From positions 124,001 to 188,000 of the forward strand of contig NZ_BATR01000164.1 in NCBI RefSeq assembly GCF_000739655.1: a stretch of 64,000 nt of DNA. Direction: 5' to 3'. The position numbers were made by a program, and so were the translations under genes. Shown here piece after piece: positions 29,133 through 38,610 of this stretch (its first letter is position 1; each line of letters begins with the position of its first letter). The DNA is from Verrucomicrobium sp. BvORR106. Lineage in GTDB: Bacteria; Verrucomicrobiota; Verrucomicrobiia; Verrucomicrobiales; Verrucomicrobiaceae. Below the pieces are notes generated by a model. The model made no database searches. It was not told the DNA's origin and saw only the letters and a list, made by a program, of their open reading frames with translations.

Positions 29133-29326
29133 CCCACCTAACTCGAAATGCAACTCGTTCATTATGAGCATGAAACACATCTCCACACTTCAACGACACT
29201 ACACTCAACGCCCAAAATTCAGACACGATTTTGCAAGATCCCCTGCCCTCCGCGATGCTTTTTGCAAGGCGAGGAAAACACCGCTTGCAGGATCAGGGTA
29301 GCAGGCGTGACACTCACCTGGGTCTC

Positions 29327-31485
<2,159 letters not shown>

Positions 31486-31489
<4 letters not shown>

Positions 31490-32637
31490 CCCCCACAGTC
31501 TTTAAGGACACCATCCTGATCATCGACGACCAGGAACAAAATCTTCAAATCGTAGGAACCATCCTTTCCATGATGGACTACGACATCATTCCTGCGCTGA
31601 GTGGGGAGCAAGCTTTCAAGCGCTTGGGCGTACGCAAGCCCGATCTGATCCTGCTGGACGTGATGATGCCGGAAATGGACGGTTTGGAGGTGTGCCGCCG
31701 CTTGCAGGCCAACCCTGACTGGTCTGGCATCCCGGTCATCTTCCTCTCCGCCGCCGACGATAAGAACCTCATCGTGCAGGCGCTGGAAACCGGGGGCGTG
31801 GATTATGTGACGAAGCCCTTCAACCGGGCGGAACTTCTCTCCCGTGTGCGCACCCATCTGGCGCTTAAACACGCCCGAGACGATTTGCGCCTGCTGGCAG
31901 AGGACAAGGACGAACTGCTGGGCATCCTGGCCCACGACTTAAAGAACCACCTCGCGGGCATGAAGCTGAGCACGAAGCTGCTTCAAGACCGCGTGTCTGA
32001 ACTGCCGCCCCGCAGCGCCCGGCTGGTGGACAACATCCATGATTCCACGGAGCGCATGCTCGTGTTCGTGAAGGAATTCCTCGCCAACCAGCTGGCAGAG
32101 AACCTGAAGGTGGATCCGACGCCGATCGACCTGAAAGAGATTCTCACCTCCGTGGGAGCCCGGCACGAACCGATCGCCGCCGCCAAGCAGATTAATATTG
32201 TGCTCGAGCTGGCTCAACGCCCTGTGATGATCAAGGGTGACCACGAAATGCTTGAGCAAGCGATGGAGAACGTGGTCTCCAATGCCATCAAATTCTCCCC
32301 AATGGGGACCACGGTCACCCTCAGAGCCATGACGGGAACCACTGGATTCGCCGTGTGCGAAGTGGCCGACCAAGGACCCGGCTTCACCGAGGAGGACATG
32401 TCCCGCATGTTCCGGCGCTATGGCCGGCTCAGCGCCCGGCCCACCGGCGGAGAGCCTTCCACAGGGTTGGGACTTTCCATCGTGAAACGCCTCATCGAAC
32501 GCATGGGCGGCACGATCCGAATGATCAGCGGCCCCGGGGAAGGGGCCGTGTTTTCCCTCCAGCTGCCGCTGGCTATTCCTGAAACCTTGGAGCAAACTCC
32601 GGAACCCCCATCGCCCGCCGCCAACCTGACCCGATAA
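31486..32637 (+). CDS. Receiver-histidine kinase (soluble)
   Basis: A 383-residue protein with an N-terminal receiver domain (LIIDDQEQN, ILLDVMMPEMDG with the phospho-aspartate, YVTKPF) joined to a histidine kinase core. The H-box reads LAHDLKNHLAGM, the N-box ENVVSNAIKFSP, and the G-boxes VADQGPGF and STGLGLSIV. It has no membrane segment. The ATGA overlap with the hybrid kinase gene implies coupled translation, and the protein could receive phosphate from that kinase and pass it on. The sigma-54 activator gene follows after 21 bp. Confidence 0.93.
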
Positions 32638-32658: not shown

Positions 32659-34014
32659 ATGGACATCCTCGTCATTGATGATGAAAAACTCATCCGCGAA
32701 GCCACGATGCAGATCGTGGAGGACGCGGGCCACTATGCGGAAAGCGCCCAGGACAGCGCCACCGCCCTGGAAGCCATCAAGGAGTCCACTTTCGATCTGG
32801 TCCTGCTCGATGTGAATCTGGGCCGCGAGTACGGTCTGGACATTCTGGACGAAATTCTCAAGCGGAATCCGCAACTGCCCGTGGTCGTCTTCACTGCGGC
32901 AGCCAACATCAGCCTGGCCGTGGAAGCGATGCGCCGGGGTGCGCTGGACTTTCTGGAGAAGCCCTTCACCGGCACCCAACTGGGGCTGGTGATCACCCGC
33001 GCGCAGAAACACCGCAAGCTGGCCGAGCGAGTGGTGGAACTGCAGACCCAGGTGGCAAGCCACAGCCCGGAGCCGGTGTTTGACTCGTCCAATCCAGCGG
33101 TGAAGGACACGCTCGACGTCCTTTTCCGCGCGGCCCCCACTCCCGCCTCCATCCTCATCCTGGGCGAGAGCGGCACGGGCAAAAGCGTGGTGGCACGCGC
33201 AGTGCATCACCGCAGCGACCGGGCGAGCAAACCTTTCATCACCGTGAACTGCCCCAGCCTCTCGAAGGAGCTGCTGGAGAGCGAACTCTTTGGCCACACG
33301 CGTGGATCCTTCACCGGCGCGGTGAAGGACCAGTGGGGCAAGGTCAAGGCTGCGGAAGGCGGCACCCTTTTCCTGGATGAGATCGGGGAGCTGCCTCTGG
33401 AGATCCAGCCCAAGCTGCTCCGACTCCTGCAAGATCGCGAATACGAGCGCCTGGGGGAAAACACCATCCGGCAGGCCAACGTCCGCATCATCGCCGCCAC
33501 CAACCGTGACCTTACCAAGGCAGTGGCGGACGGCACCTTCCGCGAGGACCTTTACTACCGCCTGAACGTCATCACCGTGACCATGCCGCCGCTGCGCCAG
33601 CGTCAGCAGGATGTGATGCGCTTTTCCGAAGAGTACCTCAAGTTCTTCGCAAAACAATGTGCCCGCCCCCTTCCGGCCTTTTCAGAGGAGGCGCGCCGGC
33701 GGGTCATGGCCTACCCCTGGCCTGGTAATCTCCGCGAACTTCGCAACGTCATTGAACGTGTCGTCATCTTGGCGGCGAGCCGGGAAATCAAGGCTACGGA
33801 CCTGCCCGCCACGCTGAATGGGAGCGCCGTAGCGGAGACGTCCCCAGACGGCCCCAACAAAGGCGACTGGGTAAGCCTGGAGGAGCTGGAGGCCGCCCAC
33901 ATCAAGGCCATCCTGAGCAGAACCCAAAGCCTCGCGGAAGCCGCATCCGTGCTCGGCATCGATCAGGCCACGCTCTACCGCAAGCGCAAGAAGCTGGGCC
34001 TAGATGCCGAGTAG
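32659..34014 (+). CDS. Sigma-54-dependent response regulator, NtrC family
   Basis: A 451-residue activator: receiver domain (LVIDDE, LVLLDVNLG with phospho-aspartate, FLEKPFTG), AAA+ domain with Walker A GESGTGKS, Walker B GGTLFLDEIGEL and the arginine-rich VRIIAATNRDL region, and a Fis-type helix-turn-helix at the C-terminus (AEAASVLGIDQATLYRKRKKLG). The sigma-54 contact loop reads GSFTGA rather than the commoner GAFTGA. It completes the signalling operon and ends 26 bp before a strong terminator. It is the natural activator for the two -24/-12 sites found at the edges of this locus. Confidence 0.95.
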   Translation: MDILVIDDEKLIREATMQIVEDAGHYAESAQDSATALEAIKESTFDLVLLDVNLGREYGLDILDEILKRNPQLPVVVFTAAANISLAVEAMRRGALDFLEKPFTGTQLGLVITRAQKHRKLAERVVELQTQVASHSPEPVFDSSNPAVKDTLDVLFRAAPTPASILILGESGTGKSVVARAVHHRSDRASKPFITVNCPSLSKELLESELFGHTRGSFTGAVKDQWGKVKAAEGGTLFLDEIGELPLEIQPKLLRLLQDREYERLGENTIRQANVRIIAATNRDLTKAVADGTFREDLYYRLNVITVTMPPLRQRQQDVMRFSEEYLKFFAKQCARPLPAFSEEARRRVMAYPWPGNLRELRNVIERVVILAASREIKATDLPATLNGSAVAETSPDGPNKGDWVSLEELEAAHIKAILSRTQSLAEAASVLGIDQATLYRKRKKLGLDAE

Positions 34015-34040
34015 CCCCGGCTGTGGTGGTTGCATTAACA

Positions 34041-34074
34041 CCTCGAACTCCCGTTGTGGATTTCGAGGTTTTTT
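34041..34074 (+). terminator. Intrinsic terminator of the signalling operon
   Basis: A 7-bp stem CCTCGAA (34041-34047) with TTCGAGG (34062-34068) is followed at once by six T (34069-34074). It lies 26 bp after the activator's stop codon and insulates the entericidin-side genes from the kinase operon. Those genes therefore need their own promoter. Confidence 0.8.
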
Positions 34075-34150
34075 CTTTTGGGGAGCAGGCTCGCCTTGAT
34101 CGGCCTCCACCCCCTAAGAAACTTGGCATCTCAGCCACCGATCCCTGAGT

Positions 34151-34263
34151 GAGGCATCAGGTGTTCATGCATTCTGCAAACGAAAAACACCAGTTCGCGA
34201 TGCAGGATGCAACCTCAAGCCCGGCAACCCTGCCGGGCGCAAAGGTGTTTTTCACTGATGCTC
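34151..34263 (+). promoter_or_regulatory. Nested dyad region: enhancer sites or structured RNA
   Basis: The 306-bp gap 34015-34320 holds, beyond the terminator, several inverted repeats in 113 bp. These are GCATCAG (34154-34160) with CTGATGC (34255-34261), and GCATTCTGCA (34169-34178) with TGCAGGATGC (34201-34210). There is also GAAAAACACC (34182-34191) with GGTGTTTTTC (34244-34253), and a tight hairpin GCCCGGCA/TGCCGGGC (34219-34238). Two compact dyads TGCA-N3-TGCA (34168-34178 and 34201-34211) are 33 bp apart. They fit paired activator sites about 105-150 bp before a sigma-54 start, but the crossing pairs would also fit a pseudoknotted RNA. Confidence 0.55.
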
Positions 34264-34289
34264 AACTACTTACACTGACCTAGATGACG

Positions 34290-34305
34290 TGGCACAGCCC
34301 GTGCG
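34290..34305 (+). promoter_or_regulatory. Possible sigma-54 promoter before the entericidin-like gene
   Basis: TGGCACAGCCCGTGCG matches the -24 TGGCAC element and has GC exactly ten bases after the GG, like the site before the DUF892 gene. The difficulty is distance: transcription would start near 34316, only about 5 nt before the ATG at 34321. It makes sense if translation really begins at the GTG at 34369. Confidence 0.45.
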
Positions 34306-34320
34306 ACTTAGGAACTCGCT

Positions 34321-34521
34321 ATGAATACCACACCTTCAGTCATCAAATTCCCCTCTCCAACCCCGGTCGTGAAGCGCCCCTTCACGAAGGCAGCCATCCT
34401 GATCGGCACCCTGGCCGTGGCCGGTAGCATGGTCTCCTGCAACACGGTGGCCGGGCTGGGGCGTGACACCCAAAAGGTCGGAAACAAGATCGAGGAGAAG
34501 GCTCACGAAGTCGCCCGTTGA
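34321..34521 (+). CDS. Entericidin-like small lipoprotein
   Basis: A 66-residue protein with a signal segment (KRPFTKAAILIGTLAVAGS) and a lipobox-type MVSC, followed by NTVAGLGRDTQKVGNKIEEKA, the typical mature part of EcnA/EcnB-type lipoproteins with G.D...G..IE. These are stress-induced outer-membrane lipoproteins. AGGAA lies 6 bases before the ATG. The first 16 residues are unlike the family, and a GTG at 34369 would give a 50-residue precursor of normal size beginning with K-R. Genes for YqjD-, YqjE- and YqjK-like proteins follow. Confidence 0.85.
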   Translation: MNTTPSVIKFPSPTPVVKRPFTKAAILIGTLAVAGSMVSCNTVAGLGRDTQKVGNKIEEKAHEVAR

Positions 34522-34579
34522 TCTTGACCGCCCTCACCGCCCCCAGCGCTTCAAAAAAACCCCGCTTTCATCCTTTGCC

Positions 34580-34861
34580 ATGACCCCGGCACCAGCCCTT
34601 GTCCTCTACCCTGAAAACATCCTCCGGGATGTGCGGCATGCCCAGCATCGCCTGACCCGGCTGACCCACCACCGGGTGCTCGATCACCTGCGTCCCGTGG
34701 TCCACTCCGCCGCGGCTGTCACCCGCGAGGCCCTGAATGGCGCAGGCCGTCCCGCATCCTGGGCTGTCTCCAACCCGCTCACCGCTGTCAGTCTGGCATT
34801 GGGCGCGGGCGTCTTGGTCGCCGCCACCATTCGTGTCCGTCACCAACAGACGAACGGCTGA
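34580..34861 (+). CDS. Small C-terminal-anchored protein, ElaB/YqjD-like
   Basis: A 93-residue protein with an amphipathic, histidine- and arginine-rich N-terminal half and one C-terminal membrane helix (NPLTAVSLALGAGVLVAATI) ending in a few basic residues. This plan and its place before a YqjE-like gene match the ElaB/YqjD group of membrane-tethered, often ribosome-associated stress proteins, but sequence similarity is faint. The ATG at 34580 was chosen; the frame is open further upstream into the entericidin gene. Confidence 0.65.
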   Translation: MTPAPALVLYPENILRDVRHAQHRLTRLTHHRVLDHLRPVVHSAAAVTREALNGAGRPASWAVSNPLTAVSLALGAGVLVAATIRVRHQQTNG

Positions 34862-34885: not shown

Positions 34886-35320
34886 ATGCAGTCTCCCCCA
34901 CACTCCGACCCGGAGAAGAGCTCCGCGGGCGTTACCGGCACATTGCGGCGACTTCTAGCTGCAGCCGTGATGTACCTGGAGGCCCGGTTTCGCCTGGCCT
35001 GTATGGAGGGGGGAGGCGCCTTCAAGCTGCTCGCCGCCGTGATCGTGGCGGGACTGACCAGTCTGCTCTTCGTCGCCATCGCCTATGTGCTGCTCATGTT
35101 TGCCCTGGTGGGCTGGGTGGCGGCCCACTGGTGGCAGGGCGACCTCGCCCCCGCGGCAACCGTCGTGGCGGCAGCCCATCTCGTTGGCGCAGCTGGCCTG
35201 GCCTTCTGGGTGGTCCGCGCCCTCTCCACCTCGAGCAAGACGCTCTTCCACGCCACCCGGCATGAATTCCAACAAGACAAGCTATGGCTCACCAGCTCCC
35301 AGTCGAACTCCAGAAACTAA
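34886..35320 (+). CDS. Phage holin family membrane protein (YqjE-like)
   Basis: A 144-residue protein with an N-terminal amphipathic helix, two membrane segments at about residues 47-72 and 90-113, and a cytoplasmic tail. This is the layout of the YqjE/'Holin_X' family. Despite the name, the chromosomal members belong with stress-induced yqjD-yqjE-yqjK operons and there are no phage genes nearby. The end overlaps the next gene by 37 bp. Confidence 0.8.
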   Translation: MQSPPHSDPEKSSAGVTGTLRRLLAAAVMYLEARFRLACMEGGGAFKLLAAVIVAGLTSLLFVAIAYVLLMFALVGWVAAHWWQGDLAPAATVVAAAHLVGAAGLAFWVVRALSTSSKTLFHATRHEFQQDKLWLTSSQSNSRN

Positions 35321-35646
35321 GACGTCAACTCGAAGCCAGCCGGTGGGATCTGCGCTGCGCAGTGGACGATCTGGAACATTCCTTGAACCTGCCTTCCCGG
35401 GCCCGTGAGGCCATCGCCTCCCATCCGATGCGCTACGCCCTGTACGCTCTGGCAGGAGGAGCGCTGGCCAGCAGGGTGATCCCGATGGTGTTCCGCATGG
35501 CCCGGCCCACCATGAGCGCCAAGATGCTGCGCACGATGCTCCAGGCGGTGGTCCCCCTGGCAGCGCCTTACGTCCTGCAGCGACTGTCACAGATGGCCCC
35601 CACCCCGTCCCTCCCTGTCCCCGGCACTCCGGCAGTCGGCAGTTGA
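35284..35646 (+). CDS. Small membrane-associated protein, YqjK-like position
   Basis: A 120-residue protein of unknown family. It starts with a charged helix (VELQKLRRQLEASRWDLRCAVDDLEHSL), followed by a hydrophobic stretch around RYALYALAGGALASRVIPMVF and a second weak one at VVPLAAPYVL. It overlaps the YqjE-like gene by 37 bp and takes the place that yqjK has in proteobacterial operons; the resemblance is in position and size, not in sequence. Confidence 0.65.
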   Translation: MAHQLPVELQKLRRQLEASRWDLRCAVDDLEHSLNLPSRAREAIASHPMRYALYALAGGALASRVIPMVFRMARPTMSAKMLRTMLQAVVPLAAPYVLQRLSQMAPTPSLPVPGTPAVGS

Positions 35647-37632: not shown

Positions 37633-38610
37633 CTACACCTTCACCGCACCCGGGGTGGCGGAACCCATCTCGAACATGAACCGCTGACCGCGGGAGATCT
37701 GGTCGTGGATGACATACCAGAGCAGGAAGGCCAGCACCAGGGACACCAGCTTGGCCTCCCAGTCGCGAGTAAACCAGAGTTTGATGCGAGCAACCGTGGC
37801 TTTGACGTCAGCGATGGTGACTCCCTCCTGTTTGCCAGGTGTAGCCTCCTCCTCATCGTCGTCGCCGAACATGAGGATCTGCTGGAGCCGGGTACGGAGT
37901 TCGTTGGCCTCCAGGTCATGCTCCAGCTTGCCTTTGTAGCAGAGGGAGAGCGACCCCGTTTCCTCACTCACCACCAGCGCGATGGCGTCCGTTTCCTCAG
38001 AGATGCCAATGCCGGCGCGATGGCGCAGCCCCACGCTGCGGTCGTTCAGATCCTTTTGAGTTACGGGGAAGACACACCCAGCAGCGATGATGCGGCCTTG
38101 ATCCACGATCATGCCACCGTCATGCAGAGGGGTCTTGGGATGGAAGATGGTCCCCACCAGTTCCAACGACATCTTGGAATCCATGCCTACGCCGCTCTCG
38201 GCATAGGGTTTGAGCTCAATGCCACGCTGGAGGGCGAAGAGCGCGCCACAACGCTTGTGGGACAAGCTCACCATGGCCTCGATCAACTGGTCCACACTGG
38301 CCTCTTCCGTCGCATTGAACGAGAAGAACCGGTGTGAGCCCAACTCGGCCAGCACGCGGCGCAGCTCTGGCTGAAAGAGCACGACCAGACCCACCGCCAA
38401 GAAGACGGAGAACCGCTCCAGCAGCCAGTTCATGACCTGAAGCTCCAGCAACTGGGAAATCAGCGTCAGTCCGAGAAGCAGGACGAGCAGGCCGGTGAGG
38501 ATGCGGGCGCCACGGGTAGCACGCAGGAACCTGTAACCATGATAAAGCAAGACGGCGAGAATCAGAATCTCCACCCCGTCTCTCCAGTGATCCTGGATGA
38601 AATTCCACAT
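37633..38610 (-). CDS. cdaA: Diadenylate cyclase, CdaA type
   Basis: A 325-residue membrane enzyme making cyclic di-AMP from two ATP. Three N-terminal membrane segments (about 15-77) are followed by the DAC domain (about 95-245). The aspartate motif reads PLHDGGMIV (D164), with DGG where DGA is usual, and GLRHRAGIG carries R196-H197-R198. After an acidic linker (DDDEEEATPG) there is an extra C-terminal membrane segment, WEAKLVSLVLAFLLWYVI, that resembles the first membrane helix of the CdaA regulator YbbR/CdaR. No separate ybbR or glmM lies nearby. It converges with the AsmA-like gene. Confidence 0.93.
   Translation of the reverse strand: MWNFIQDHWRDGVEILILAVLLYHGYRFLRATRGARILTGLLVLLLGLTLISQLLELQVMNWLLERFSVFLAVGLVVLFQPELRRVLAELGSHRFFSFNATEEASVDQLIEAMVSLSHKRCGALFALQRGIELKPYAESGVGMDSKMSLELVGTIFHPKTPLHDGGMIVDQGRIIAAGCVFPVTQKDLNDRSVGLRHRAGIGISEETDAIALVVSEETGSLSLCYKGKLEHDLEANELRTRLQQILMFGDDDEEEATPGKQEGVTIADVKATVARIKLWFTRDWEAKLVSLVLAFLLWYVIHDQISRGQRFMFEMGSATPGAVKV

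Follow-up and report, generated by a model that had tools for sequence, protein, structure and literature searches.

Enhancers of the nitrogen regulator NtrC consist of paired palindromes and act through DNA looping on sigma-54 promoters, and the consensus of their sites differs from TGCA-N3-TGCA. Sites of LuxO are described by the consensus TTGCA-N3-TGCAA (PMC3352281); in Vibrio fischeri, qrr1 has two LuxO sites in which half-site changes weaken activation, and LuxO shares sites with another regulator, SypG (PMC10162802). The sigma-54 regulome described for Desulfovibrio vulgaris includes response-regulator targets termed 'general stress response' (DVU3305) and 'envelope stress response' (DVU3381) (PMC4641369). 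Outside sigma-54 control, the EcfG general stress response of Sphingopyxis granuli is reported to have csbD and ecnAB among its direct targets (PMC7083833).

Here we analyse a cluster of inverted repeats (positions 34151-34263) in a stretch of 64,000 nucleotides (hereafter the window) from Verrucomicrobium sp. BvORR106, a member of the genus Verrucomicrobium with an 8.69 Mb genome. The conserved part of this cluster is very probably a LuxO-like sigma-54 enhancer of a two-component envelope-stress regulon, with the NtrC-family regulator encoded upstream as its presumed activator. The remaining repeats appear to be peculiar to this strain, and the locus illustrates cleanly how inverted repeats confined to one strain can mimic a pseudoknot.

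Gene content and inverted repeats of the locus

The repeats lie between a group of signalling genes and a presumed operon of small proteins. The features are as follows (positions in the window):

29231-31489, plus strand: hybrid histidine kinase with a CHASE3 domain, the presumed sensor; the start codon is uncertain (Pfam PF05227, PF00512, PF02518, PF00072)
31486-32637, plus strand: hybrid of REC and histidine kinase, belonging to the signalling cluster (Pfam PF00072, PF00512, PF02518)
32659-34014, plus strand: NtrC-family response regulator (REC, sigma-54 AAA+, HTH_8), presumed activator (Pfam PF00072, PF00158, PF02954)
34040-34079, plus strand: terminator-like stem-loop and T run, 3' of the regulator gene, folding at -15 kcal/mol; three species share the stem and the T run
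34154-34261, no strand: whole span of the window-only arms, present here and only partly kept in two same-genus relatives
34154-34160 and 34255-34261: GCATCAG/CTGATGC, window-only outer arm
34168-34178, no strand: putative upstream enhancer half 1, TGCA-TTC-TGCA; palindrome kept in two same-genus and two sister-genus genomes, ending 111 bp before the -24 element
34182-34191 and 34244-34253: GAAAAACACC/GGTGTTTTTC, window-only crossing arm
34201-34211, no strand: putative upstream enhancer half 2, TGCA-GGA-TGCA, 33 bp after half 1; kept in the same four genomes, 78 bp before the -24 element
34219-34226 and 34231-34238: GCCCGGCA/TGCCGGGC, window-only GC hairpin
34290-34304, plus strand: predicted sigma-54 (-24/-12) promoter TGGCACAGCCCGTGC, an exact match to TGGCAC-N6-TGC, kept in both same-genus relatives
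34321-34521, plus strand: entericidin-family small lipoprotein, 66 aa, presumed first operon gene (PF08085, 27.8 bits, cut-off 23.3)
34580-34861, plus strand: small protein, 93 aa, presumed operon member; no Pfam match, same-length open frame in both relatives
34886-35320, plus strand: YqjE-like membrane protein (Phage_holin_3_6), presumed operon member (PF07332, 35.6 bits, cut-off 28.4); 94% and 88% identical in the two relatives
35284-35646, plus strand: 120-aa protein, presumed operon member; no Pfam match, same-length open frame in both relatives

Every inverted-repeat arm named in the first-pass annotation was recovered at its position when checked against the sequence: the outer pair, the crossing pair, the 8-bp hairpin and a 10-bp pair with one G-U (GCATTCTGCA at 34169, TGCAGGATGC at 34201), which lengthens to 11 bp with one G-U (TGCATTCTGCA at 34168, TGCAGGATGCA at 34201). 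GGTGTT is present at 34160, with a second copy at 34244, and the start-to-start distance of 33 bp between the two TGCA-N3-TGCA dyads is correct. Perfect inverted repeats of at least 7 bp number three in the 113-bp segment (10, 8 and 7 bp), a count equalled in 1.25% of 2000 dinucleotide shuffles and in 1.2% of the window's 113-bp tiles; their summed length of 25 bp is equalled in 0.2% of the 2000 shuffles (P = 0.002) and in none of the tiles. The dyads are therefore above chance level in this window. That the region is a dispersed repeat or of mobile origin was rejected: searches of its own genome (best other match 25 bp at 88%, E 0.22) and of a plasmid collection returned no copies.

The regulator, the promoter and the dyads together have the make-up of an NtrC-type regulon: (i) the presumed activator combines a receiver, a sigma-54 AAA+ domain with a GAFTGA-like loop (GSFTGA at residues 216-221) and an HTH domain (Pfam); (ii) the -24/-12 promoter at 34290 is accompanied by an RpoN gene in the genome (Sigma54_DBD, 209 bits); and (iii) the dyad is repeated, at a preferred and helically phased upstream position. 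Among 62 copies of the regulator, all loop residues but the S are conserved at 98-100%, D51 is largely conserved and the HTH helix is near-invariant, with I434, D435, T438, R441 and R443 present in all. None of the curated NCBIfam cut-offs was reached among the best 25 of 122 families. Assignments of the regulator to NtrC (TIGR01818, 389.5 bits against a cut-off of 558.6), to the PEP-CTERM response regulator PrsR (TIGR02915, 364.9 against 502.6) and to LuxO (NCBIfam equivalog, 350.3 against 800) were rejected. The entericidin-family protein, which is 98% and 92% identical in the two relatives, falls short of the EcnA and EcnB equivalogs of NCBIfam. Close to the operon, a CdaA-type c-di-AMP cyclase (DAC and CdaA_N domains) is encoded on the minus strand at 37633-38610.

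The promoter has the same-genus counterparts TGGCACAGCCCTTGC (G065) and TGGCATATCCCTTGC (G067). Its motif has four exact matches in the window and is by itself not rare; matches with at most one mismatch number 45 against 30.6 expected. The promoter ends 16 bp before the entericidin ATG (34321), and transcription is predicted to start at about 34316, five bases before that ATG. Because the promoter is downstream of the dyads, these would lie upstream of the transcript, and the location in an 'entericidin leader' given by the first-pass annotation does not hold. A scan of 33900-34600 found no sigma-70-like promoter. The hairpin at 34040-34079 is missing from the consensus scan, which has a loop limit of 8 that this hairpin exceeds. 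With the ATG 16 nt past the -12 element (interval 34304-34321), the mRNA is predicted to be near-leaderless; 16 of 70 such promoters have an ATG at an offset of 15 or 16 from that element.

Conservation and distribution of palindromes, promoter and regulator

Three other genomes of the genus were compared, two of which (G065 and G067) carry the locus; in the third, which is 76% complete, the double palindrome has no match. In a family-wide nucleotide search, these two same-genus matches stand out (E 5.6e-21 and 2.2e-13; next E 0.028), and across the aligned interval TGTTCATGCA(T/A)TCTGCAAACGAAAAAC...GCGATGCAGGATGCAACCT is near-identical in both. In two sister-genus genomes (G061 and G062), TGCAACCTGCA and TGCACATTGCA stand 32 bp apart after a regulator ortholog, with the TGGCAC promoter TGGCACGCGGCATGC or TGGCACGCGCCATGC 78 or 79 bp beyond the dyads; the remainder of the interval has no recognisable similarity to the window.

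We then examined the surroundings of the regulator across the order. Of 217 order genomes, 58 contain protein matches to it at E <= 1e-105, 66 in total, and 62 regions, chosen by protein alone and covering 63 of the 66 matches, were fetched around them; three of these regions belong to the same genus, and the rows are not all independent. TGCA-N3-TGCA occurs 105 times in the 62 regions against 11.4 expected, with 17 close pairs (20-45 bp apart) in 16 regions, while the 15 other palindromic tetramers, and spacers of 0-11 except 3, give zero close pairs. Palindrome-promoter pairs with a gap of 20-220 bp number 46, of which 20 fall at 110-113 bp and six at 78-79 bp; every other gap has at most one pair, and a control with the promoter read backward yields one pair. 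Many ortholog neighbourhoods have no strict dyad-promoter pair, which indicates that the operator is often degenerate or absent. G177 and G138 also have paired palindromes immediately ahead of the regulator's own gene, the G138 site being without a good -12 element. At least 16 genomes have an entericidin match no more than 6 kb from the regulator; a regular-expression search for entericidins at loci found via the YqjE-like protein returned none, and the regulator is the better locus anchor of the two.

The pattern TGCA-N3-TGCA, 100-122 bp, TGGCA-N7-TGC, which is strict and misses degenerate sites, was also searched in 206 whole genomes of the order. It yields 90 sites in 55 genomes, against six for the reversed pattern, and 49 of the 90 sites have a gap of 110-113 bp within the allowed 100-122 (binomial 2e-15, orthologous sites not removed). 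The regulator is carried by 28 of the 30 genomes with 110-113 bp sites, against 57 of all 206 (Fisher 1.6e-16), where order genomes without a listed regulator match are counted as regulator-negative; the two exceptions (G079 and G184, gap 110) have one common sequence. The 41 sites with other gaps occur in 37 genomes, 21 of which carry the regulator; this is also above background (Fisher 3.5e-5), so genome size, lineage or real sites with other spacings may partly account for the association. Some sites with gaps near 101 and 122 are identical in sequence across genomes (e.g. G038, G042 and G060; G021, G034, G039 and G049) and were taken as conserved coding sequence, the others at these gaps not being shared; the shared-sequence sites and those of G079 and G184 were kept in the counts.

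A second palindrome, scored as perfect or degenerate (at least six of eight core bases), follows the first by 30-34 bp at 21 of 63 distinct promoters, against a mean of 1.2 and a maximum of 5 in 300 shuffles. Second dyads cluster at 21-22 and 31-33 bp, spacings of two and three helical turns such as would be expected for protein dimers on one face of the DNA. A search of 228 genomes for a double palindrome with TGGCA behind it gives 14 occurrences, in 13 genomes, and zero for the reversed pattern. By position, ten of these occurrences are near a regulator ortholog or an entericidin gene; the other four are a G018 pair read on the other strand, tandem repeats in G103 and G026, and one in G013 near neither.

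At the phylum level, the site (gap 109-114 bp) is found in 26 of 288 genomes, against one reversed match. In genomes of the class outside the order, the regulator (E <= 1e-110) is present in all five with sites and in five of seven controls without them, so this comparison does not discriminate. Outside the class, none of 11 site-bearing genomes has a regulator ortholog at this threshold; a common regulator for sites beyond the class is thus not supported, and another activator may use the same site there. The enhancer and sigma-54 pattern in such ortholog-free genomes is seen at L274, L289, L273, L288 and L275, and G346 has two pattern sites 1.5 kb apart on opposite strands. At L208 (8898, minus strand), TGCA-N3-TGCA and a sigma-54-like site precede an rpoN gene (Sigma54_DBD, CBD and AID); with a gap of 66, this site may be due to chance.

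Candidate mechanism and alternative explanations

The sites and promoter, their spacing and phasing, their conservation, their co-occurrence with the regulator and the gene content can all be read directly from the genomes, and they suggest a working mechanism. We infer that, upon an inducing signal, the neighbouring CHASE3 and hybrid kinases would phosphorylate the regulator, which would assemble into an AAA+ ring; dimers of this protein, encoded directly upstream, would bind the two TGCA-N3-TGCA palindromes on approximately the same helix face, three turns apart. The DNA between enhancer and promoter would loop, ATP hydrolysis would open sigma-54 RNA polymerase at 34290-34304, and the entericidin/YqjE-like operon would be transcribed from about 34316. 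The same regulator may serve further sigma-54 promoters (two more strict sites are present in this genome) and thus an envelope-stress-type regulon.

The first-pass annotation had left two readings side by side, an NtrC-type DNA enhancer and an RNA pseudoknot or switching element. The former has strong support from conservation, fixed promoter spacing, helical phasing and regulator co-occurrence; this does not implicate the nitrogen regulator NtrC. The latter, i.e. a pseudoknotted RNA switch in the entericidin leader with two GGTGTT copies competing for GAAAAACACC, is extremely unlikely. Its crossing arms are perfect here, and the 113-nt segment folds far better than shuffles (z = -6.3). Aligned with the two same-genus relatives, the segment has 73.8% of its cells paired, a value attained by none of 500 shuffles, and both partners differ in four pairs; the shuffles average 1.8 such pairs, and 14 of the 500 have at least four. 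However, this covariation alignment has three sequences with the structure derived from one of them, and a control with partners slid by +2 columns also gives four such pairs. The compensated stems that the annotation had proposed to look for in relatives did not emerge: the well-kept helix (97% paired) has ten of its 11 pairs invariant, one broken and none compensated, while for the other stems the two relatives retain only 4/6 and 4/7 pairs of the outer stem (pooled 8/13), 5/10 and 5/10 of the crossing pair (10/20) and 2/8 and 2/8 of the GC hairpin (4/16). No perfect inverted repeat of at least 7 bp is left in either relative, and three of the four dyads are peculiar to this genome. Compared with shuffles, the relatives' segments have little or no folding advantage: z is -1.2 and -1.1 in the same genus and -0.7 and +1.3 in the two sister-genus segments. 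Of the latter, one has no perfect inverted repeat of at least 7 bp, while the other (L192) has repeats of 8 and 7 bp. The N3 triplets of the dyad pair in the sister genus agree at one of three positions, so no continuous RNA stem can form; similarly, among 13 promoters with two perfect palindromes, the N3 triplets are fully Watson-Crick complementary in none, and in three if G-U is allowed. Rfam gives no match at gathering score in the window; below that score, four matches close to the region (best E 0.24) are at chance level. The region also follows the terminator-like hairpin and precedes the sigma-54 promoter, in an interval where the scan found no sigma-70-like alternative.

If the conserved part is a sigma-54 enhancer, its activator could still be another NtrC-family paralog. 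Such candidates are numerous in each genome (145 at first look in G000), sites outside the class occur without an ortholog of this regulator, and the site sharing of LuxO and SypG described for Vibrio fischeri offers a precedent (PMC10162802). This is nevertheless unlikely, given that the regulator gene adjoins the site, that paired sites precede the regulator's own gene in two genomes, that sites and regulator strongly co-occur, and that the recognition helix is near-invariant in its 62 copies. Alternatively, the window-only stems might have an added strain-specific role, e.g. as an extra terminator or as a cruciform that insulates or shapes the loop. Perfect inverted repeats are indeed in excess around the enhancer here compared with the two same-genus relatives, and templated mutation or chance may account for them. 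We consider an added role very unlikely: relatives that share the regulatory layout do not keep these stems, no T run adjoins the GC hairpin, and templated mutation or chance would suffice. The enhancer reading, with the upstream regulator as the candidate activator, turns an ambiguous repeat cluster into a testable map of operator, promoter, candidate regulator and target list.

Putative regulon and comparison with known systems

Three strict sites are present in this genome, each with a counterpart in both same-genus relatives, and their predicted targets are (i) the entericidin operon, (ii) a DUF5670 small membrane protein and (iii) a short open frame before a glycine-zipper protein. The last of these is at L244 (2137-2805, minus strand), where the enhancer and sigma-54 promoter pattern precedes a 66-aa open frame without a Pfam match and the glycine-zipper protein. 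Twenty proteins downstream of sites across genomes were chosen for domain analysis: 12 are above the Pfam cut-off (entericidin, DUF1328, DUF5670, CsbD, DUF892, BON, Pmp3, fasciclin, short-chain dehydrogenase, glycine-zipper, Phage_holin_3_6 (YqjE-like) and CHASE3 kinase), three are below it and five have no match. Since csbD and ecnAB are under EcfG in Sphingopyxis granuli, a stress role for the regulon can reasonably be inferred.

More broadly, and tentatively, Verrucomicrobiales may have a small-envelope-protein stress regulon (entericidin, DUF1328/DUF5670, CsbD, DUF892, BON and YqjE-like proteins) that is run by a two-component system of its own with a sigma-54 enhancer-binding regulator, uses twin enhancers of a LuxO-like kind, produces near-leaderless transcripts and fills the role that RpoS/EcfG has in Proteobacteria; we regard this as possible, at somewhat less than even chances. 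If the stress reading is true, gene sets of the RpoS/EcfG type would here be controlled by sigma-54, which requires an activated enhancer-binding protein at its promoters. No description of such a regulon was found among the matches listed in the open-licence PMC literature.

EcfG and RpoS general stress regulons overlap with the present one in gene content (csbD, ecnAB; PMC7083833) but differ in that the promoter here is a sigma-54 promoter with an NtrC-type activator. Sigma-54 stress regulators are known in Desulfovibrio vulgaris, so the kind of system is known and the regulon here would be a new member of it; 'TGCA' does not appear in the text of PMC4641369. The locus resembles NtrC systems in its paired palindromes and sigma-54 promoter, whereas its regulator is below the NtrC cut-off.

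At Vibrio qrr genes, LuxO likewise uses TGCA-N3-TGCA, sometimes as two sites, upstream of a -24/-12 promoter (PMC3352281, PMC10162802). The core and the right flanking A of the described LuxO site agree with those here, where the left flanks are A and the N3 triplets are TTC and GGA (WWW in V. fischeri). By contrast, the sites here are without the left flanking T and the A/T-only N3, and the target is an envelope protein gene rather than a small RNA. In its predicted working, the element resembles a LuxO-type enhancer, with a regulator that is not LuxO by the curated cut-off. The PrsK/PrsR system of PEP-CTERM genes is similar in combining a kinase and an NtrC-like regulator with a conserved, sometimes repeated activator site, a spacer and a sigma-54 promoter (PMC1569441). 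Its motif, as described there, ends in TTTACA with a spacer of 32-92 nt, unlike the TGCA-N3-TGCA and preferred spacing found here (PMC1569441). On these comparisons, PrsR appears to be the nearest logical parallel to the Verrucomicrobium locus, built on a different motif.
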